NCBI GenBank assembly: GCA_902797705.1
Contig: CADBTX010000035.1
Coordinates: forward strand, 1 to 11,684
Reading direction: 5' to 3'
Source: an uncultured Lachnospiraceae bacterium
GTDB lineage: Bacteria; Bacillota; Clostridia; Lachnospirales; Lachnospiraceae
DNA length: 11,684 bases
In this document: positions 2,477 through 11,684 of the stretch, in pieces
Numbering within the stretch: position 1 is the stretch's first letter
Layout of the letters: every line of letters starts with the position of its first letter
Notes under the pieces: model-generated
Seen by the model: the letters and a program-made list of their open reading frames with translations, nothing else
Told to the model about the DNA's origin: nothing
Database searches by the model: none
Program-made: the position numbers and the translations under genes

Positions 2477-3695
2477 AAGCCTTTTCCTTCTCTGCAGGAA
2501 GAGATGTCCTGCGATAGAGGTACCAAGCCGCATAAAGATAGGCGAAGAGGTACATAAGGCTCATATGCTGGTAATTTAACAGATTGTCACCCATATGGAA
2601 GAGATAGCTTCCGTAGGTGAATATCGGACAGAGATTCATGATGACCGCCGTTGGGGCCAGCTTTAGATCTATAGCCAGAGCGTACATGCTGAGTATTATT
2701 ATTGCGAGATAGTCATATCTCTCATGCATGGCGGGAAGGAACATCACACAGGTCATCACGAAGAATCCCGCGATCGCAAACATGAGCCGCTCGTCCAGCC
2801 TGTCCCTTCTCCTCATAAGGAAGCAGGCTATCAGCACCAGCACCGTCAGAGTTATCATAAGTGCCGGCACCGTCATGGCTTCATAGCTGTCTATGCCGAG
2901 AATATAGATATTGGGGAAGCCAATGCTCATCTTTGCCACATCCGTCTGCCTGAAATAGACAAGATACGTAGCCGCCGGAGACCTGCCGCAGATAAGGGCG
3001 GGAATGCCCGCAGCAAGATACAGTCCCGGGAACCACAGGAATTTCAGGATGCTGAATTCGTGGTAGCAGATATACATGGCTATCAGGAAGGGCACGAAAA
3101 ACAGGGTCTGAAGCTTGAAAATAAAGGCGATCCCGAAAAATATAAAGGCCGGATCGTATTTTTTCTTAAAAAAGAAATAGAGGCCGATAAAGATAAATGA
3201 GGTATAAAATGCATCACACTGCTTCCAGAGGGAGCCGTTCAGCATGGCCATGGGGAGATAGAGCATCATGGCGGCGGCAAAGGCAGACCTCACCTTATTT
3301 CCGCCGGTAAGATGATTCAGTATCTTGAACATGAAGAGCGCCCCCAGATACTCGCCGAATACGGAAACGACAGAGATCCAGATGCCCTCGTCAAATATGG
3401 GGATCACTGAGATGATTGCCAGGATGATGTTATAGGGCACATAGTAGTCCCCGATGGTACGGCTCAGCCCTTCCCGGACCCCAAGCTCCCTGTAGTAATC
3501 CACCCAGACCCGGAGAAATCCCCGGAAGTCCCCGGAAATATAGTCTCCGTTAAACTTAAAGGTGATGAGCTTGTACCTTATCACCAGAGAAAACAGCACG
3601 ATAACAGCCACCGCTATCTCATAGATGTGGTTTTCAATGATATTGATCAGTACTTTGTCAAGAGGGGTAAGCCCCTTCTTTTCATTTTGTTCCAT
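2475..3695 (-). CDS. Multi-spanning GT-C-type (GT87/DUF2029-like) glycosyltransferase
   Basis: This 406-residue integral membrane protein has about eleven or twelve hydrophobic helices, the first near residues 24-44 and the last near 379-395. Features fit GT-C enzymes that use polyprenyl-phosphate sugars on the outer face of the membrane. Acidic residues occur in the first external loop (NGDYISGDFRGF, 49-60). LWKQCDAFY (156-164) resembles the LWKQ-D segment of DUF2029 or mannosyltransferase-like proteins. PAMHERYDYL (321-330) has the HERY motif typical of this group. The ATG follows GGAGAG in the end of carB, and only one base separates the two genes. The next gene is a GtrB-like synthase, which would make this enzyme's lipid-linked donor. 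The acceptor (teichoic acid, polysaccharide or protein) is not apparent. Exact family assignment is less sure than the GT-C fold. Confidence 0.72.
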   Translation of the reverse strand: MEQNEKKGLTPLDKVLINIIENHIYEIAVAVIVLFSLVIRYKLITFKFNGDYISGDFRGFLRVWVDYYRELGVREGLSRTIGDYYVPYNIILAIISVIPIFDEGIWISVVSVFGEYLGALFMFKILNHLTGGNKVRSAFAAAMMLYLPMAMLNGSLWKQCDAFYTSFIFIGLYFFFKKKYDPAFIFFGIAFIFKLQTLFFVPFLIAMYICYHEFSILKFLWFPGLYLAAGIPALICGRSPAATYLVYFRQTDVAKMSIGFPNIYILGIDSYEAMTVPALMITLTVLVLIACFLMRRRDRLDERLMFAIAGFFVMTCVMFLPAMHERYDYLAIIILSMYALAIDLKLAPTAVIMNLCPIFTYGSYLFHMGDNLLNYQHMSLMYLFAYLYAAWYLYRRTSLPAEKEKA

Positions 3696-3696
3696 C

Positions 3697-6600
3697 TTAA
3701 CTCTCCGAATGCAGCTCCTGCAGCGATCTTACAGCCGGATCACCGGAGCGCTTTATCTCCCTTATACCCTCTGCCGCTGCTCTTGCCGCTGCGATCGTGG
3801 TGATATAGGGGATCCTGGCCTTTATGGCATCCTTCCGGAGATAGCTGTCGTCATGCATGGATTCCTTACCCACGGGAGAATTGATGATAAGGTCGATGCT
3901 GCCGTTGATTATAAGATCCCTGACATCGGGCCGTCCTTCGTAATTCTTGTTCACGTGCTCCACCGGCACTCCGGCTTCCGCTATCCTCTTGCAGGTCTCA
4001 CCTGTAGCGTAGATCTTGAAGCCGTCTTCATGGAAGGATCTGGCGATCTCTGCAGCCGCAGGCTTGTCCTCCTTATTTACGGATATCAGCACCGCGCCCT
4101 CCATGGGAAGAGGCGACTTTGTGGCTTCCGCCGCCTTGATAAAGGCCTCTCCCGGAGTCTCCGCAAGACCCAGCACCTCTCCTGTGGAACGCATTTCCGG
4201 ACCCAGTACGGGATCCACCTCAGGGAACATATTGAAGGGAAATACCGCTTCCTTCACGCCGTAATAGGGGATGTTCCTGTGTTTAAGCTCCGGCACGGGG
4301 GACTTTCTGCCTGTAAGATCAGAGGTTATGATATCTATGGCGATCGGCACCATCCTTATGGCGCAGACCTTTGACACCAAAGGCACCGTACGGGATGCTC
4401 TGGGATTTGCCTCCAGAACGTAGACCTTCCCGTCCTCTATGGCGTACTGCATGTTCATGAGTCCCACCACGTTCATCTCCGTGGCGATCCGCTTTGTGTA
4501 ATCCCTTATGGTCTCAAGGGACTTTTCGTCAATATGCTTTGAGGGAATGATGCAGGCGCTGTCTCCGGAATGGATACCCGCCAGCTCAATATGCTCCATC
4601 ACGGCAGGCACGAAGGCGTCATGTCCGTCACTTATGGCATCCGCCTCGCACTCCATGGCATTATGAAGGAATCTGTCGATAAGGATGGGACGGTCGGGCG
4701 TCACTCCCACCGCAGCGTTCATGTAATCCCTCATGCTCTCATCATCCCTTACGACCTCCATGCCTCTTCCGCCAAGGACATAGGAAGGACGCACCATTAC
4801 AGGATATCCGATCCTGTGGGCAAGCTCCGTGGCCTCTTCCACATTGACAGCCATTCCCGATTCCGGCATGGGTATATTGAGCTTATCCATGACCCGTCTG
4901 AACTGGTCACGGTCTTCCGCCAGATCTATGACAGCGGGAGAAGTGCCGAGGATCCTGACCCCGTATCTCTCAAGCTCGGAGGAAAGGTTCAGGGGAGTCT
5001 GTCCGCCGAACTGGGCGATCACTCCCACCGGCTTCTCCTTATTGTAAATACTTAAAACATCCTCCAGTGTCAGAGGCTCAAAATACAGCCGGTCACTGGT
5101 ATCGTAATCCGTGGACACGGTCTCCGGATTACAGTTGATTATGATCGTTTCAAAGCCCAGCTTCTTTAATGACTGGGCCGCATGAACGCAGCAATAGTCA
5201 AATTCTATGCCCTGCCCTATCCTGTTGGGGCCTCCCCCGAGTATCAGGATCTTCTTTTTACCGTTATCGATGCTCTCTGTGTCCTCGGGGAGACAGTAGC
5301 TGGAATAGTAATAAGCCGCGTCCTCCGTGCCGCTTACATGTACCTTATCCCACTTTTCCCTGCAGCCGAAGCCTTCTCTTTCCTTCCTTATGGCCTCCTC
5401 GGAAACCCCCAGGATCTCCGAAAGATACTTATCGGAGAATCCGTCCTGCTTGGCCTTTATAAGGGCTTCCTTCCCGGGAACCCTTCCCTTGAAGGAACGG
5501 ATAAGTTCCTCCTCTTCCTCCACCAGTTCCTTCATCTCACGGATAAAGTATTCCTTTACGGATGTGATCTTATTTATCTCTTCAATGCCGGCGCCCTTCC
5601 TTAAGGCCTCATACATAATGAAATGCCGCTCTGAGGAAGCGCTCCTTAAAAGGTTCAGCAGTTCTTCCTTTGACTTTTTGTCGTAATCCTTCACATGGCC
5701 GAGGCCGTATCTTCCCTTTTCAAGGGAACGGACAGCCTTCTGGAAAGCCTCCTTGTAGTTCTTTCCGATACTCATGACCTCGCCCACGGCCCTCATCTGG
5801 GTACCGAGCTTATCCTCCACGCCCTTGAATTTTTCAAAGGCCCAGCGGGCAAACTTGACCACCACGTAATCACCGTCCGGCTTGTATTTGTCAAGCGTAC
5901 CGTACTTCCCGCAGGGAAGCTCATCAAGGGTGAGGCCTGCCGCAAGCTTTGCTGACACCAGCGCGATGGGGAAGCCCGTAGCCTTGCTGGCAAGAGCAGA
6001 GGACCTGGAGGTCCTGGGATTTATCTCTATAACGATGACACGGCCGCTCTTCGGATCATGGGCGAACTGCACATTGGTGCCCCCTATGACTCCGATATGT
6101 TCCACGATGGAATAGGCCTGTCTCTGAAGCTCCTGCTGCAGTTCCTCTGAAATGGTGAGCATGGGCGCCGTACAGAAGGAGTCGCCGGTATGGACTCCCA
6201 CCGCATCCACATTCTCTATGAAGCAGACGGTGATCATATTGTTCTTGCTGTCACGGACTACCTCCAGCTCCAGTTCCTCCCAGCCCAGTATCGATTCCTC
6301 CACCAGCACCTGATGGATAAGGGAGGCCTGAAGTCCTCTTTCACACACCGTCTTCAGTTCCTCTTTATTGTATACGAAGCCGCCTCCCGCGCCTCCCATG
6401 GTGTAGGCAGGTCTGAGCACCACGGGATAACCGAGCTCCTCCGCGATCTCCAGAGCCTCTTCCACCGAATAGCAGGCCTTTGAACGCGCCATTTCTATAC
6501 CAAGCTCGTTCATGGTCTTTTTGAACTCGATCCTGTCCTCTCCCCGTTCAATGGCATCCACCTGAACTCCGATGACCTGAACCCCGTACTTGTCCAGAAC

Positions 6601-6986: not shown

Positions 6987-8279
6987 TCAGAGCTCCGGCA
7001 CCAGCTGGTTCTCATAGATCTGCTCGTAGCTCTGCCTTTTGACCATCAGGGCATGACGGCCCTCCTTTACCAGCACTGCAGCCGGCAGAGGGTTATTGTT
7101 GTAATTTGAAGCCATGGAATAACCGTAGGCTCCGGTGGAATAAACGGCCACGATGTCGCCGCTTTCAATGCTTCCCGGAACCGGAAGATCCCTTATTATG
7201 ATATCTCCGGATTCACAGCACTTACCGCAGATCGTCACCTTCTCCTCAGTGGGTTCATCTGCTTTATTTGCGACGCAGCCCGTATATACCGCGTCATATA
7301 AGGGAACCCTGATATTATCCCCCATTCCGCCGTCTATGGATACGTACTTCCTGACATTTTTTATCTCCTTTATCTGTCCCACGGTATAAAGGGTTATCCC
7401 GGCTTCGGCGATGATGCTGCGCCCGGGCTCGATGGCCACAGCGGGTCTTTCAACCCCCATGTCCTCCGACCACTCCTTTATCCTTTCCACCATGGGATCC
7501 AGGAAGAAGGAATAGGGCTTTCTCTCTTCGTCCACGTAGGTAGCCCCGAATCCGCCGCCAAGGTTCATCTCATGCACGTCCGCCCCCAGCCTTCTCTTTA
7601 TCTCCGTTGCGGTAGTGAGCATGACTTCAAGGGATTCCATGTACTCCTTTGTGGTGAAAAGCTGTGAACCGATATGCATGTGGAGCCCGTGGAATTCCGT
7701 GTAGGGTGAATCAATGACACTCTTTATCACCGGATATAAAACATCATCCTCCATAGGTATGCCGAACTTGGAATCCAACTTCCCCGTTATGATGTAATCA
7801 TGGGTGGAGGCCGCCACTCCGGGAGTGATACGCACCACCACCTTCACCTTTTTACCGTGCTTTTTGCAGGCTTCTTCAATGAGAGGAAGCTCCGCAGTGC
7901 CGTCCAGTATGAAGCGCTCCACTCCGTAGCCCACCGCCAGATCTATCTCCGACGGCAGCTTGTTATTTCCGTTAAACTCTATCCTGTCCGCAGGGAAATT
8001 GACGGACATCGCCACCGCCAGCTCTCCGCCGCTCACAACATCTATGGAAAGGCCCGACTTTTCAATAAGCTTATACATTCCCCTGGTACAGAATGCCTTC
8101 GAAGCATAGGCCACACGGCAGTTGCCGTGCTTTTCGATAAAATCCCTCTTAAGCTCCGCAAATCTCATCTCTATATCGCTCTGTGAAAAAACATAGAGGG
8201 GGGTGCCGTACTCCTTCGCAAGAAGCGTAGTGTCACAGCCGTCAAAAAACAATTTTCCATCTCTGATCTCTTTGAACAT
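6987..8279 (-). CDS. lysA: Diaminopimelate decarboxylase
   Basis: LysA removes the carboxyl group at the D-centre of meso-diaminopimelate to give L-lysine, the last step of lysine synthesis. The 430-residue protein is of usual length. Its alanine-racemase-like barrel has the PLP lysine K61 in YASKAF, SGGEL (83-87), HGLHMHIGSQ (197-206), the phosphate-binding GGGFG (241-245) and EPGR (284-287). The C-terminal part has CGKCCESGDI (351-360) with the catalytic Cys and the Glu-Ser-x-Asp substrate signature, and then GAYGYSMASNYN (383-394). All key residues are present. The start ATG follows GGAGAAAAGGAG, 48 bases after the mutase stop. That gap is far too short to hold a lysine riboswitch, so regulation must come from further upstream in the transcript. 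A second, divergent member of the same fold lies two genes upstream in transcription order. Confidence 0.95.
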   Translation of the reverse strand: MFKEIRDGKLFFDGCDTTLLAKEYGTPLYVFSQSDIEMRFAELKRDFIEKHGNCRVAYASKAFCTRGMYKLIEKSGLSIDVVSGGELAVAMSVNFPADRIEFNGNNKLPSEIDLAVGYGVERFILDGTAELPLIEEACKKHGKKVKVVVRITPGVAASTHDYIITGKLDSKFGIPMEDDVLYPVIKSVIDSPYTEFHGLHMHIGSQLFTTKEYMESLEVMLTTATEIKRRLGADVHEMNLGGGFGATYVDEERKPYSFFLDPMVERIKEWSEDMGVERPAVAIEPGRSIIAEAGITLYTVGQIKEIKNVRKYVSIDGGMGDNIRVPLYDAVYTGCVANKADEPTEEKVTICGKCCESGDIIIRDLPVPGSIESGDIVAVYSTGAYGYSMASNYNNNPLPAAVLVKEGRHALMVKRQSYEQIYENQLVPEL

Positions 8280-8327: not shown

Positions 8328-10022
8328 TCACTCTACTGCCTCAGCCCTTGATATCACTGCTTCCTCAAGGGTCCTTGCAGCTTCCTCAGCCCTGTCTCTT
8401 CCGGCATCATCCACGGCGTAGAAATAAAACTTGATCTTCGGCTCCGTGCCCGAAGGACGCATAGCAAACCAGAGTCCCCGCTCCAGATAGAAGATCAGCA
8501 CGTTTGAAGCCGGGATATCCTCATAACCCTTTAGAAAATCCCGTTTTTCCAATACCCGGAAGCTGCCGAAGGATCCGATGTCCGAATCCCGGAAAACATC
8601 CATGATCCGGCCTATCCTCTCCTGTCCTTCTTTTCCCTTTAATACAAAGGACTTCTGCCTGTCGGAAAAATAGCCGTATTTCCCGTATATCTCCAGGAGC
8701 TTTTCATAAAGCCCCAGTCCCTTACGTCTGTAATAACCTGCCATTTCGGAGATCAGCATTCCCGCTGCCACTCCGTCCTTATCCCTGACCTTCTCTCCCG
8801 GGGCGCAGCCTATGCTTTCCTCATAGCCGAAGAAATAGTCAAAGCCCTTTTCCTGAAGCTCCGGTATCCGCCCGCAGATATTCTTGAACCCCGTCAGGGC
8901 TTCAAATACCTTTATGCCGTAGTCCTCACATATCCTCCGGCCCAGATCTCCCGTAACTATGGATTTTATCATGGCGGATCTTTCCGGAAGCAGACCCTTC
9001 TCCTTTTTGCTCTCCGCCAGATAGTTGATGATAAGGCCTCCGGTCTGGTTGCCGTTTAGGGGGATATACCTGTTCCCGTCCCTTACCTCTATCGCCATCC
9101 TGTCCGAATCGGGATCCGTGGCGATAAGGACCTCCGCATCATATCTTTCCCCGTACTCCTCTGCCAGGGCAAAGGCCTTCGGCTCCTCGGGGTTGGGGAA
9201 GGGCACCGTGGTAAATTCCGGGTCCGGATCCTCCTGCTCTTTTACCATATGGAAGTTCTCAAAGCCCCTTTCCTTCATGATACGGGAAAGAGGGATGCTG
9301 CCGGCTCCGTTTAAGGGAGTGTAGACTATGGAAACCTTCCTGTCAATTTCATCATCATCTCTCTGCCTTAAGGTCATAACATAGTCCAGGTACTTCCTGT
9401 CCATGTCTTCCCCCAGCGTTACGAGAAGTCCCTTTTTCGCGGCCTCCTCCTCAGAAAGGATGTCTACACTGTCAAAAAAGCTGTATTTCTGTATCTCTTT
9501 AAGGATCCCGTCCGAAACACTCCCGGATATCTGGGCTCCGTCCTCCCAGTACACCTTATAACCGTTATACTCCTTGGGGTTGTGGCTGGCTGTCATATTT
9601 ACGCCGGACACTGCATTAAGCTCCCTTATGGCGAAGGAGAGCTCGGGAGTCGGCCGGAGAGAAGGGAAGATATACACCTTTATCCCCATGGCGTTAAGTA
9701 TCCCCGCAGCGAGATATGAAAACTCCTTTGAGTGATAGCGGCAGTCGTAGGCAAATACCACTCCCCGGGACTTATCCAGCCCGGATTTCAGGATATAATC
9801 ACCTATGCCTCTGGTGGCCTTTGCCACGGTCAGGTCGTTCATCCTGTTGCTGCCGGCTCCGGTGATCCCCCGGAGTCCTGCGGTGCCGAATACTATCTCC
9901 TGATAGAAGCGGTCTATGATCTCCTCATCATTGCCCTCAATGGAAAGCAGCTCCTCCCTCATGGGGTCCCCGTGGGAAAGACTGCTTAACCAGATTTTGT
10001 ATTCTTCAAAGGGATCCCTCAT
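8328..10022 (-). CDS. Phosphoglucomutase/phosphomannomutase (alpha-D-phosphohexomutase, PgcA type)
   Basis: This enzyme interconverts hexose 6-phosphate and 1-phosphate and so supplies glucose-1-phosphate or mannose-1-phosphate for nucleotide sugars. It has 564 residues, close to Bacillus PgcA. All four active-site regions are visible: FGTAGLRG (45-52), the phosphoserine loop TASHNP (144-149, Ser146), the metal loop DPDSDR (303-308), and the sugar-binding GYEES (399-403), with the phosphate-binding RPSGTEPK (522-529) near the C-terminus. The ATG follows AAGGAGG with a six-base spacer and overlaps the decarboxylase gene's end by 17 bases, so translation is probably coupled. In this setting it plausibly feeds precursor to the glycosyltransferases further down the directon. 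Sequence alone does not separate glucose from mannose preference. Confidence 0.93.
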   Translation of the reverse strand: MRDPFEEYKIWLSSLSHGDPMREELLSIEGNDEEIIDRFYQEIVFGTAGLRGITGAGSNRMNDLTVAKATRGIGDYILKSGLDKSRGVVFAYDCRYHSKEFSYLAAGILNAMGIKVYIFPSLRPTPELSFAIRELNAVSGVNMTASHNPKEYNGYKVYWEDGAQISGSVSDGILKEIQKYSFFDSVDILSEEEAAKKGLLVTLGEDMDRKYLDYVMTLRQRDDDEIDRKVSIVYTPLNGAGSIPLSRIMKERGFENFHMVKEQEDPDPEFTTVPFPNPEEPKAFALAEEYGERYDAEVLIATDPDSDRMAIEVRDGNRYIPLNGNQTGGLIINYLAESKKEKGLLPERSAMIKSIVTGDLGRRICEDYGIKVFEALTGFKNICGRIPELQEKGFDYFFGYEESIGCAPGEKVRDKDGVAAGMLISEMAGYYRRKGLGLYEKLLEIYGKYGYFSDRQKSFVLKGKEGQERIGRIMDVFRDSDIGSFGSFRVLEKRDFLKGYEDIPASNVLIFYLERGLWFAMRPSGTEPKIKFYFYAVDDAGRDRAEEAARTLEEAVISRAEAVE

Positions 10023-11193
10023 GATCGGCCTCCTTTTCAGGTGTATTAAGGATCCAGCTGGCTTTCTCCGCCCTTAAGAGCCTGAGCCCGCCGTCATCCA
10101 TCCATACTTCCGGCATATTTCTTGATAAAAAGGCAAGAGCTCCCTCTGAAACGGAATAAGCCCCTGCCCTGTCAAAGCACAAAATATCCCCCGGTTTAAG
10201 CTCCGGGAGCATTACATTTCTGATAAGCACATCTGCCGTAGTGCAGAGACTGCCTGCAATGCAGTACTCTTTTCCCTCTTTTCCGGCATCTCCTTTTCCT
10301 GTGGAAAAGATCTCCTCTTCGCTGCGGATCACAGAGACCGGAGGAATCTTCATCCCCATGTTCTGAGCGTGGTATTTGACCTGATGCACCCCTCCGTCGC
10401 AGATAACGTAATTCACTCCTCCGTTACTCTTTACATCCATGACCTTTGTAAAGTAACGGCCGGAAGGGGCCGCGAGAAAGCGTCCCATCTCTATCCCCGT
10501 CCTGTATTTCCCGGCGAATTCCAGGATACGTCCGGAAACAAGGTTCAGAAGCTCCCTGTCCTTTTCCTCACAGGGCTCTTCGTAATATTCGGCAGAAAGC
10601 CCGGGACCGTATTCCACCAGGGAGGGGATAAAACCCCTGTCCTTTTCTGCCTTCGTAAGGAGCCCTTCCAGATTGGAAAGATCCCTTTCTATCTGCTTTT
10701 GCTTATTCTTTGCGGTGCCGGAGTAATAGTGTATCCCCACGATCTCCACATTATATCTGTCCCTTTCGGAAAGAATGTCCATGATGTCCTCTTCCGACAT
10801 CCCGAACTGGTTTCCGGAAGAAAGCCTGAGCAGTACCTTAAGGCTTTTTTCCCTTCCTTCCCCAGCCTTTGCAATAAGGGAAAAGTGGCCCTTGCTCTCC
10901 GCCGTCAGTATATCCGCGCCGTAGAGCACCGCTTCCCCGACATCCGTCTCTTCCTTCATGACGCCGGAATAGATGATCCTTTTCCCCTCTATATCCATAG
11001 CTTTACATATGGACAGTTCTCCGGGACTGCATACCTCCACATGACGGATAAGGCTCTCGTCCGGAAGGGCAACTAAAAGAAAAGGATTGGCCTTTATCGA
11101 AAAGGTCAGATCCAGTTCCTTAAAAACGCTCTTAACCAAAGCCGCTCTCGTCCGGAAGCGGTCTGCATCAAAAATATAGCGTGGTGTTTTCAT
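10006..11193 (-). CDS. Fold-type III PLP-dependent decarboxylase, BtrK-like, paired with a carrier protein
   Basis: This 395-residue protein belongs to the diaminopimelate/ornithine decarboxylase family but is clearly not a second LysA. Seen in the sequence: PLP lysine K34 in SIKANP, CSPGEL (55-60), SSGNQFGMS (125-133), GIHYYSGT (153-160), and EMGRFLAAPSG (235-245) in place of EPGR. GPG at 196-198 replaces the phosphate-loop GGG of LysA. ICDGGVH follows at 264-270, then IAGSLCTTAD (312-321) with the catalytic Cys317, and FDRAGAYS (340-347). From memory, CTTAD and DGGVH resemble BtrK (CTPED, DGGMH), the butirosin enzyme that decarboxylates glutamate bound to the carrier protein BtrI. Its ATG overlaps the carrier gene's TGA (TGATG), which supports a joint role. 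The substrate is unknown. Alternatives are a free amino-acid decarboxylase or a carboxynorspermidine-type enzyme. Confidence 0.75.
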   Translation of the reverse strand: MKTPRYIFDADRFRTRAALVKSVFKELDLTFSIKANPFLLVALPDESLIRHVEVCSPGELSICKAMDIEGKRIIYSGVMKEETDVGEAVLYGADILTAESKGHFSLIAKAGEGREKSLKVLLRLSSGNQFGMSEEDIMDILSERDRYNVEIVGIHYYSGTAKNKQKQIERDLSNLEGLLTKAEKDRGFIPSLVEYGPGLSAEYYEEPCEEKDRELLNLVSGRILEFAGKYRTGIEMGRFLAAPSGRYFTKVMDVKSNGGVNYVICDGGVHQVKYHAQNMGMKIPPVSVIRSEEEIFSTGKGDAGKEGKEYCIAGSLCTTADVLIRNVMLPELKPGDILCFDRAGAYSVSEGALAFLSRNMPEVWMDDGGLRLLRAEKASWILNTPEKEADHEGSL

Positions 11194-11423
11194 CAGGCTT
11201 CCTGCAGCCTCTCGATCAGTTCTTCCAGAGCATCAAGAGAATTGAAATTATCAGCCGTAAGATCCTTGGGGGATATCTCCACATCAAATTCATCATCCAG
11301 CTCCGCCACTATCTGGACGATGTCGAAGGATTCCAGTATATTCCCGCTTACCAGCTCCTTCTCATTTTCAAAATCCACGTCAGGTCTTACCTCACTTAAG
11401 ATCTCTAAAAGTTTTTCCCTCAT
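11193..11423 (-). CDS. Acyl/aminoacyl carrier protein, DltC-like
   Basis: This is an acidic 76-residue protein with the four-helix phosphopantetheine carrier pattern. The attachment serine is Ser32 in ILESFDIVQ (29-37), followed by the recognition helix IVAELDDEFDVEI (38-50) and the TADNFNSLDAL segment (56-66). The serine context and the DNFNS stretch look more like DltC-type carriers of Clostridia than the fatty-acid ACP, whose usual motif is DSLD. The start ATG follows GGAGG with an eight-base spacer. Upstream in the transcript is an adenylation enzyme that would load it, and its stop codon overlaps the start of a decarboxylase. I infer that it carries an amino acid, or the amine made from it, as a thioester. 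A phosphopantetheinyl transferase is not in the window. Confidence 0.85.
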   Translation of the reverse strand: MREKLLEILSEVRPDVDFENEKELVSGNILESFDIVQIVAELDDEFDVEISPKDLTADNFNSLDALEELIERLQEA

Positions 11424-11458
11424 ACGCTTTTCCTCCCGGAAGTCTATTTTGACTAATC

Positions 11459-11516
11459 GCTCCCAAAATTCCTGTCCCCGGCTAAGTTCTTCCCCGGCGG
11501 CAATTTCTTTTGGAGC
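11459..11516 (-). repeat. Inverted repeat and short direct repeat between adenylation and carrier genes
   Basis: In the 98-base gap, TTTTGGAGC (11508-11516) can pair with GCTCCCAAAA (11459-11468), giving nine pairs with one bulged base around a loop of about 39 bases. Inside the loop, TCCCCGGC occurs twice (11475-11482 and 11491-11498). It has no U-run, so it is unlikely to be a terminator. It could be an RNA processing or stability element that separates carrier-protein expression from the upstream gene, or it may have no function. Confidence 0.3.
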
Positions 11517-11521
11517 CTTAT

Positions 11522-11684
11522 TCAGTGTATCATATTTCTGAGTACATTAAAATCCGTTTTTCCATTGGGGAGAAGGGGCAGGCTTTCAAGGTTCTTTATC
11601 TTCCTCGGCACCATGAACCCCGGAAGTTTATCTCTCAGCGCGAGAGCCACTTCCCTCGTATTCTTTTCCCCTTCGTAGAAAAAC
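11522..11684 (-). CDS. Adenylation (AMP-binding) enzyme, C-terminal end only (DltA-like)
   Basis: This is a minus-strand frame entering at the right edge and ending at TGA (11522-11524), with 53 residues visible. It contains LRDKLPGFMVPRKI and LPLLPNGKTDFNVLR. These are the closing signature of the ANL superfamily (acyl-CoA synthetases, NRPS adenylation domains, DltA), where the lysine of PNGK is the catalytic A10 residue. The chain ends about a dozen residues after this motif, so no carrier domain is fused and a separate carrier is needed; one is encoded next. By gene order it activates an amino acid or other carboxylic acid and loads it on the carrier protein. Because nearly all of the enzyme lies outside the window, the substrate-pocket residues cannot be read. 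Confidence 0.8.
   Translation of the reverse strand, partial: FFYEGEKNTREVALALRDKLPGFMVPRKIKNLESLPLLPNGKTDFNVLRNMIH

Follow-up and report, generated by a model that had tools for sequence, protein, structure and literature searches.

A Dlt-like five-gene cassette with a BtrK-related decarboxylase in Lachnospiraceae and its proposed role in envelope-polymer acylation

The stretch analysed here, referred to as the window, spans contig CADBTX010000035.1 (C35; 11,684 nucleotides) from end to end; the contig comes from an uncultured Lachnospiraceae bacterium (assembly GCA_902797705.1). Its right-hand end carries part of a five-gene cassette that encodes an adenylation enzyme (A enzyme), a stand-alone carrier protein, a pyridoxal 5′-phosphate (PLP) decarboxylase related to BtrK, a membrane-bound O-acyltransferase (MBOAT) and an SGNH protein. 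The reading favoured here, with moderate confidence, is that the cassette acylates an envelope polymer: aspartate or glutamate would be loaded through its side chain, decarboxylated on the carrier and transferred as beta-alanine or gamma-aminobutyrate (GABA). The gene set, its conservation, the family assignments, the motifs and the tree positions were observed directly; from these we infer the substrate, the order of the steps, the acceptor and the physiological effect.

The Cassette in the Window and Its Continuation

The decarboxylase gene (10006..11193, minus strand) encodes a 395-amino acid PLP enzyme of fold III, the alanine-racemase fold, with matches to PF02784 and PF00278. The PLP lysine is Lys34 and the catalytic cysteine is Cys317, within the motif GSLCTTAD. 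The carrier gene (11193..11423, minus strand) encodes 76 amino acids and matches PF00550 at 22.4 bits against a gathering threshold of 20.8, with Ser32 located in ILESFDI. The stop codon of the carrier and the start codon of the decarboxylase overlap as TGATG at 11193. The A enzyme is represented by its C-terminal tail (11522..11683, minus strand), which consists of 53 codons and a stop, shows the A10 motif LPNGKTD in translation and reaches the contig end. The first-pass annotation had described these three genes as a consecutive trio; the order, the strand and the shared stop/start stand, but only the tail of the A enzyme lies within the window.

The last 87 bases of the window are identical to the first 87 of contig C272 from the same genome. 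When the genome was searched with the A enzyme of a relative (locus L034), residues 1–466 were found on C272 and residues 440–491 on the window (75%). The remainder of the A enzyme occupies bases 3–1397 of C272 on the minus strand. On the same strand are an MBOAT (frame 1384–2985), which ends in GMIYAKF and carries an acyl-shuttle motif, and an SGNH protein (frame 2976–3950). The three open frames overlap one another by short stretches and share their strand with the window trio. Thus, the MBOAT and DltD-like partners that the first-pass annotation had suggested looking for to the right are present in the organism’s own genome. The exact overlap and the genes on C272 together define the unit as a five-gene operon, SGNH-MBOAT-A-carrier-decarboxylase, and the link between the contigs agrees with the gene order in relatives.

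Conservation of the Five Genes

Contigs of named genomes were scanned with the decarboxylase as the query, and the best 80 of at least 577 loci were retained (the named loci). Partner genes were called with family hidden Markov models if they shared the strand of the decarboxylase and lay no more than 9 kb away. The carrier was present at all 80 loci, the A enzyme at 76, the MBOAT at 69 and the SGNH protein at 60, with all five genes at 58; where the flank was ample, the set was complete at 41 of 48 loci. The A enzyme, carrier and decarboxylase lie on one strand at 76/80, which bears out the expectation that the trio would co-occur in related genomes, and the MBOAT and SGNH partners accompany the trio at the 58 complete loci. 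Three gene orders account for all but one of these: A-carrier-decarboxylase-MBOAT-SGNH (34 loci), SGNH-MBOAT-A-carrier-decarboxylase (13) and SGNH-A-carrier-decarboxylase-MBOAT (10). The named loci include Lachnospiraceae, Ruminococcus albus, Ruminococcus bromii, Roseburia porci, Agathobacter ruminis and Pseudobutyrivibrio, as well as metagenome-assembled genomes titled Solobacterium, Mogibacterium and Christensenella. Within the genus, 16 of 29 loci hold the complete set; these are partly the same contigs as the named loci.

A second sample was drawn through the A enzyme to remove the bias of fetching via the decarboxylase. It comprises the 88 further A-enzyme matches listed, in 74 other genomes, from a 200-genome family sample, and a decarboxylase lies within approximately 5 kb of 37 of them. 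With this reverse count, and with a carrier at 80/80 and an A enzyme at 76/80 decarboxylase loci, the association of the trio is not due to chance. Both the MBOAT and the SGNH protein are present at 23 of the 37 decarboxylase loci of this wider family sample. Two Pseudobutyrivibrio loci (L142 and L145) carry the A enzyme, carrier and decarboxylase with no MBOAT or SGNH gene in reach; a second A enzyme lies about 2–3 kb downstream and a second carrier about 4–5 kb downstream.

At a threshold of E ≤ 1e-40, a scan of 61 genomes detected the decarboxylase in 30 of 37 genomes of the genus, the window’s own included, and in none of 24 genomes from other families of the order. At E ≤ 1e-100 it was present in 39 of 200 family genomes and 9 of 291 class genomes sampled, again with its own included. 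The presence in 39/200 family genomes means that the decarboxylase is not a rarity.

No sixth gene recurs at more than 8 of the 80 named loci when neighbours within 9 kb are clustered, although a single cut was applied to every gene, so a fast-changing sixth gene could escape, and the carrier itself is too short for clustering. The suggestion that the cassette forms part of a glycosyltransferase locus was therefore not borne out, as only the five genes recur in more than 8/80 loci.

The Adenylation Enzyme

The A enzyme of locus L034 is a relative of DltA that scores 246 bits against the DltA equivalog TIGR01734 (cut-off 559.85). None of the 61 scanned genomes, the window’s included, has a protein above that cut-off. 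Judged by these scores and by the pocket residues described next, the cassette A enzymes are not DltA.

The residues of the adenylation pocket, which the first-pass annotation had singled out for inspection, are given here in GrsA numbering. The window clade reads [SA][PQ][LF]DYIAA[IV]RD[IM]Y, that is, Asp233, Ile235 and Arg239, and differs from the A enzymes beside true DltB. The A enzymes fetched via the decarboxylase amount to 95 cassette rows, which represent 83 different sequences because 12 contigs were fetched twice. Ile235 occurs in 77 of these sequences and Asp235 in five (PFDFDVSVKD), with one unreadable; the A enzyme of the window’s genome has Ile235. Asp235 is also kept by the A enzyme of one Dlt-like operon free of a decarboxylase and by those of four loci with an adjacent DltB match, of which three score over the DltB cut-off.

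In the sample fetched through the A enzyme, a decarboxylase lies beside 35 of 47 Asp233-type enzymes versus 1 of 40 of other types (one row was unreadable), and Asp235 is kept at 34 of 36 readable decarboxylase loci. It is therefore Asp233, and not the loss of Asp235, that tracks the decarboxylase, though with exceptions. At position 239, a basic residue is common both in enzymes with a decarboxylase (36/37) and in those without (33/51). The idea that Asp235 loss together with Arg239 marks all decarboxylase operons was withdrawn, as the 88-match sample shows this to be a feature of one clade only. A tree of 123 A enzymes, in which 25 of the decarboxylase-linked rows had been fetched via the decarboxylase, contains a 76-row group (SH-aLRT 89) with 61 of the 62 decarboxylase-linked rows and 12 rows without a decarboxylase. 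The decarboxylase label requires 8 changes on this tree, against an average of 41 in shuffles.

The equivalent of Asp235 in VinN binds the beta-amino group of 3-methylaspartate, according to PMC11253843. The Asp235 kept in the larger cassette clade would suit aspartate, and its loss in the window clade an amino group placed farther off, such as that of glutamate; this split is a guess. A literature search on Arg239, in the context of microcystin, found no paper.

Further A enzymes of the family lie outside this pattern. A clade of 21 rows (e.g., L228, L229, L231 and L234–L240) with the motif P[LF]Y[FV]DA[CS] has 20 members without a decarboxylase and one with. Decarboxylase-free operons of the Dlt-like type are common in this family; another, L181:9701-14451, falls outside the 21-row clade, and its A enzyme has a different motif and is below the DltA cut-off. 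Eight A enzymes (L278, L282, L285, L291, L295, L303, L310 and L311) have Ser at position 235 (P[FL][YH]FSMSV), and six of them have an MBOAT nearby on the same strand. These enzymes may load a hydroxy acid or some other compound that is not an amino acid.

The Decarboxylase

The decarboxylase stays under the cut-off of several family models, among them the following three. Against the LysA equivalog TIGR01048 it scores 136.5 bits (cut-off 297.9), and against the NspC model TIGR01047 it scores 18.8 bits (cut-off 409). The exosortase-A-associated decarboxylase model TIGR03099 gives 139 bits (cut-off 478). Its best solved relative is BtrK (2j66/7ru7; E ~1e-27), with ornithine decarboxylases scoring lower. 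Lys34, Cys317 and Thr318 are invariant in 30/30 aligned genus rows, and LCT surrounds the catalytic cysteine in all 30. Among the rows of the tree described below, GxLCT is present in 31/31 cassette-1, 7/7 cassette-2 and 14/14 BtrK-like proteins, and LysA reads GKCCESGD in 4/4. In ornithine decarboxylase and LysA, the residue after the catalytic cysteine points towards the distal end of a diamine substrate; in the window decarboxylase it is Thr. The segment aligned with the RxxLY of LysA is altered as well.

The tree comprises 71 rows, with VinO, FlvO and the ornithine decarboxylases left out. In it, the cassette and orphan decarboxylases (43 rows) group with 14 BtrK-like proteins with support of 99/93, apart from LysA and NspC, and NspC forms a separate clade (100/100). 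One BtrK-like row (P0121) has the same sequence as the BtrK query. Four rows that match TIGR03099 were mixed, and no exosortase reference was made of them. The identities of LysA and of NspC were both rejected, the former on its score, on GSLCTTAD in place of CCES and on the tree, the latter on its score and its separate clade. This placement agrees with the BtrK parallel drawn in the first-pass annotation, and the tight LysA grouping that would have spoken against that parallel did not emerge. An AlphaFold model of the protein (pLDDT 89) is about equally close to LysA (39.2) and BtrK (38.8), with approximately 26% identity to BtrK in the structural alignment. Structure comparison cannot separate the two and was therefore left out of the family choice. 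From its sequence, we infer that the enzyme belongs to the BtrK-type group of the alanine-racemase fold, and its action on an aminoacyl-carrier is predicted.

BtrK decarboxylates BtrI-S-glutamate (PMC7857480). A tree published in the same paper groups BtrK with FigC, SbnH, AcsE, MccE, diaminopimelate decarboxylases and D-ornithine decarboxylase, in a clade without polyamine roles.

An alternative function for the PLP enzyme is that of a racemase or epimerase, with a D-amino acid as its product and the rest of the operon carrying out conventional D-alanylation. The Dlt system needs D-alanine, and some public records call homologues alanine racemase, others diaminopimelate decarboxylase, many with an overlapping PF01168 match. 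Such a role is nonetheless very unlikely, as the window protein matches PF02784 and PF00278 and has no alanine racemase C-terminal domain, its catalytic cysteine is invariant, the A enzyme of the relative falls far under the DltA cut-off, and the window clade has no Asp235.

It has also to be considered that the A enzyme might load meso-diaminopimelate (DAP), or some diamino acid other than DAP, through one of its alpha-carboxyls, with the other end decarboxylated to leave lysine or a diamine on the polymer. The enzyme is indeed a LysA homologue by its TIGR01048 score, and lysA adjoins the cassette in the closest relatives. The replacement of the CCES of LysA by LCT, the changed RxxLY segment and the lost Asp235 in the window clade argue against DAP, as does the presence of lysA near the cassette in just 7/80 named loci, and this substrate is very improbable indeed.

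Within the genus there is a sister clade of ‘orphan’ decarboxylases (L049, L050, L051, L052 and L059). No A enzyme was found at these five loci, two of which are near contig ends. In L049, L050 and L052 the orphan gene sits in a block with sugar-nucleotide pyrophosphorylase-like and sigma-factor-like genes, named by eye.

The Carrier, MBOAT and SGNH Partners

Ser32 of the carrier is invariant in 12/12 aligned sequences. The window carrier falls below both DltC models (30.3 against 68 bits and 20.6 against 52.35). The MBOAT of locus L034 likewise scores 134 bits against 375 for the DltB equivalog TIGR04091. The solved relatives of the cassette MBOAT at E ≤ 0.01 are all DltB. No protein of the window’s genome exceeds the TIGR04091 cut-off, and 3 of 120 family genomes do (L184–L186). 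True D-alanylation thus seems rare in the family, and Dlt-like relatives are abundant.

The cassette MBOATs end in a C-terminal shuttle motif of the FXYXXF type, with ..Y..[FY] in 66/69 named and 20/20 genus proteins; the first position is often M or L, not F, and the window genome reads MIYAKF. FXYXXF is known as an acyl-Tyr shuttle motif from DltX and PatA (PMC12148441). The SGNH protein has the SGNH fold and its catalytic triad, with Ser67, Asp273 and His277 invariant in 13/13 sequences. A Foldseek search with its model returned PatB as the first match and DltD at rank 32. A DxxH pattern scan for block V detected 6 of 78 SGNH rows, a low count that is due to the spacing of block V here, DGGNH.

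The Proposed Pathway

In the proposed pathway, the A enzyme would adenylate aspartate or glutamate via the side-chain carboxyl and load it onto the phosphopantetheine of the carrier. The BtrK-related PLP enzyme would then strip the free alpha-carboxyl on the carrier to give a beta-alanyl or gamma-aminobutyryl thioester. The DltB-like MBOAT would bring the acyl group through the membrane and receive it on the Tyr of the shuttle peptide at its own C terminus. Finally, the Ser of the SGNH protein would transfer the acyl group to a hydroxyl on a polymer of the wall or cell surface, which would then bear a positively charged omega-amino acid ester. Every one of these steps has a characterised relative.

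Three observations weigh against this scheme or the unit on which it is built. The exact 87-base overlap alone is no proof of the link to C272 in so fragmented an assembly (2.29 Mb in 355 contigs; completeness 80%, contamination 5.5%). The stem by which the cassette decarboxylases join BtrK is long, at 2.07 changes per column, and for this reason the grouping is not beyond doubt. An MBOAT is missing within approximately 5 kb at 8 of the 37 decarboxylase loci in the family sample fetched through the A enzyme; the five-gene unit is therefore firmest in the clade of the window.

The chief rival to on-carrier decarboxylation leads to the same end product. Free aspartate or glutamate would be decarboxylated first, and the resulting free beta-alanine or GABA would then be activated by the A enzyme. 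This is the order of events in incednine, where IdnL3 decarboxylates free beta-glutamate before loading and IdnL1 follows (PMC11284099). The 12 of 47 Asp233-type enzymes without a nearby decarboxylase could use an omega-amino acid from elsewhere, and a displaced amino group would also account for the altered 233/235 positions. It is set against this order that the decarboxylase groups with BtrK, whose substrate is carrier-bound, and that, in the window, its reading frame and the carrier frame overlap. Decarboxylation ahead of loading is thus regarded as unlikely.

Decarboxylation on the carrier might instead serve a small-molecule pathway, in which the carrier-bound omega-amino acid is the starter of a secreted metabolite and the MBOAT and SGNH proteins release or acylate the product. 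The characterised trios considered here (vicenistatin, fluvirucin and butirosin) do yield antibiotics. Beside the five cassette genes, though, a sixth does not recur, and the shuttle-motif MBOAT-SGNH pairs that PMC12148441 describes have envelope polymers as their targets. A secreted metabolite is extremely improbable.

Envelope acylation by the cassette may extend to an undescribed and widespread surface chemistry of gut and rumen Clostridia, in which polymers are esterified with beta-alanine or GABA via on-carrier decarboxylation. The two A-enzyme clades would then differ in substrate, with Asp235-bearing enzymes using aspartate to give beta-alanine and Ile235/Arg239 enzymes using glutamate to give GABA. 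This broader proposal is tentative and is held to be slightly short of an even chance. A literature search found no paper with the five-part combination, its coverage being mostly without subscription papers. Dlt-type decoration determines the surface charge of Gram-positive bacteria and how well they resist cationic peptides. If the proposal is true, common gut genera (Ruminococcus bromii and albus, Roseburia, Agathobacter) bear a different surface group, and BtrK-type enzymes, which the cited papers place in antibiotic pathways, gain a role in the cell envelope.

Comparison with Known Systems

The dlt operon (DltA, DltB, DltC, DltD and DltX), responsible for teichoic acid D-alanylation, shares with the cassette an A enzyme, a carrier, a DltB-like MBOAT, an SGNH partner and a Tyr shuttle. 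The cassette differs in its added decarboxylase, in its A-enzyme pocket and in the position of the shuttle motif, which is on the MBOAT itself and not on DltX. As the A enzyme and MBOAT of L034 and the window carrier are all below their Dlt equivalog cut-offs, an ordinary dlt operon was rejected, in line with the first reading of the locus.

That reading had named butirosin BtrI/BtrK as the known parallel. By sequence, no solved relative is nearer than BtrK, which belongs to the sister group in the tree and bears the same GxLCT; the butirosin product is an antibiotic side chain, and identity to BtrK is approximately 26%. Butirosin carrier loading is performed by BtrJ, an ATP-grasp enzyme. For an AMP-forming loader, the closest parallel is VinN/VinL/VinO and FlvN, not butirosin alone. 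The vicenistatin trio, like the cassette, brings together an AMP-forming loader, a stand-alone carrier and a PLP decarboxylase. VinN and FlvN place an acidic amino acid, in the form of a beta-amino acid, onto a stand-alone carrier, with 3-methylaspartate used by VinN and aspartate by FlvN (fluvirucin), and VinO decarboxylates there and requires the thioester (PMC11284099). The cassette differs from VinN/VinL/VinO in being coupled to an MBOAT and an SGNH protein, with no further recurring partner. The window-clade A enzyme has Ile at the equivalent of VinN Asp230, and the other cassette clade keeps Asp. The alignment shows no one-residue-shorter loop after YGPTE.

The exosortase-A-associated proteins TIGR03098 and TIGR03099 also, by the names of the models, associate an AMP-forming ligase and a PLP decarboxylase with one surface system. 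They were rejected, as the A enzyme of L034 reaches 167 bits against the ligase model (cut-off 592) and the decarboxylase is likewise far below its own cut-off. PatA/PatB, which O-acetylate peptidoglycan, share the MBOAT with a C-terminal FXYXXF and the SGNH partner; in the account of PMC12148441, PatA differs in using acetyl-CoA as the donor with no carrier.

Neighbouring Genes

Adjoining the decarboxylase, and outside the conserved unit, is a phosphohexomutase gene (8328..10022, minus strand) with PGM_PMM domains. It is followed by an ordinary lysA (6987..8279, minus strand), which scores 415.5 bits against TIGR01048, reads GKCCESGD and served as an internal control. Further downstream are a carB-like gene, named from its sequence alone without a search, and a GT87-type match below gathering. 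The phosphohexomutase gene recurs near the cassette at 8 named loci, a carB-sized gene at 6 and lysA at 7 (L094–L098, L100 and L101, as a second, weaker decarboxylase match). These genes and the glycosyltransferases were consequently dropped as members of the unit. At 588–2526 of the window, a family-2 glycosyltransferase (PgfS/ArnC-type models, below cut-off) adjoins a YdjC-type deacetylase, possibly as a pair for lipid-linked sugar modification unrelated to the cassette.

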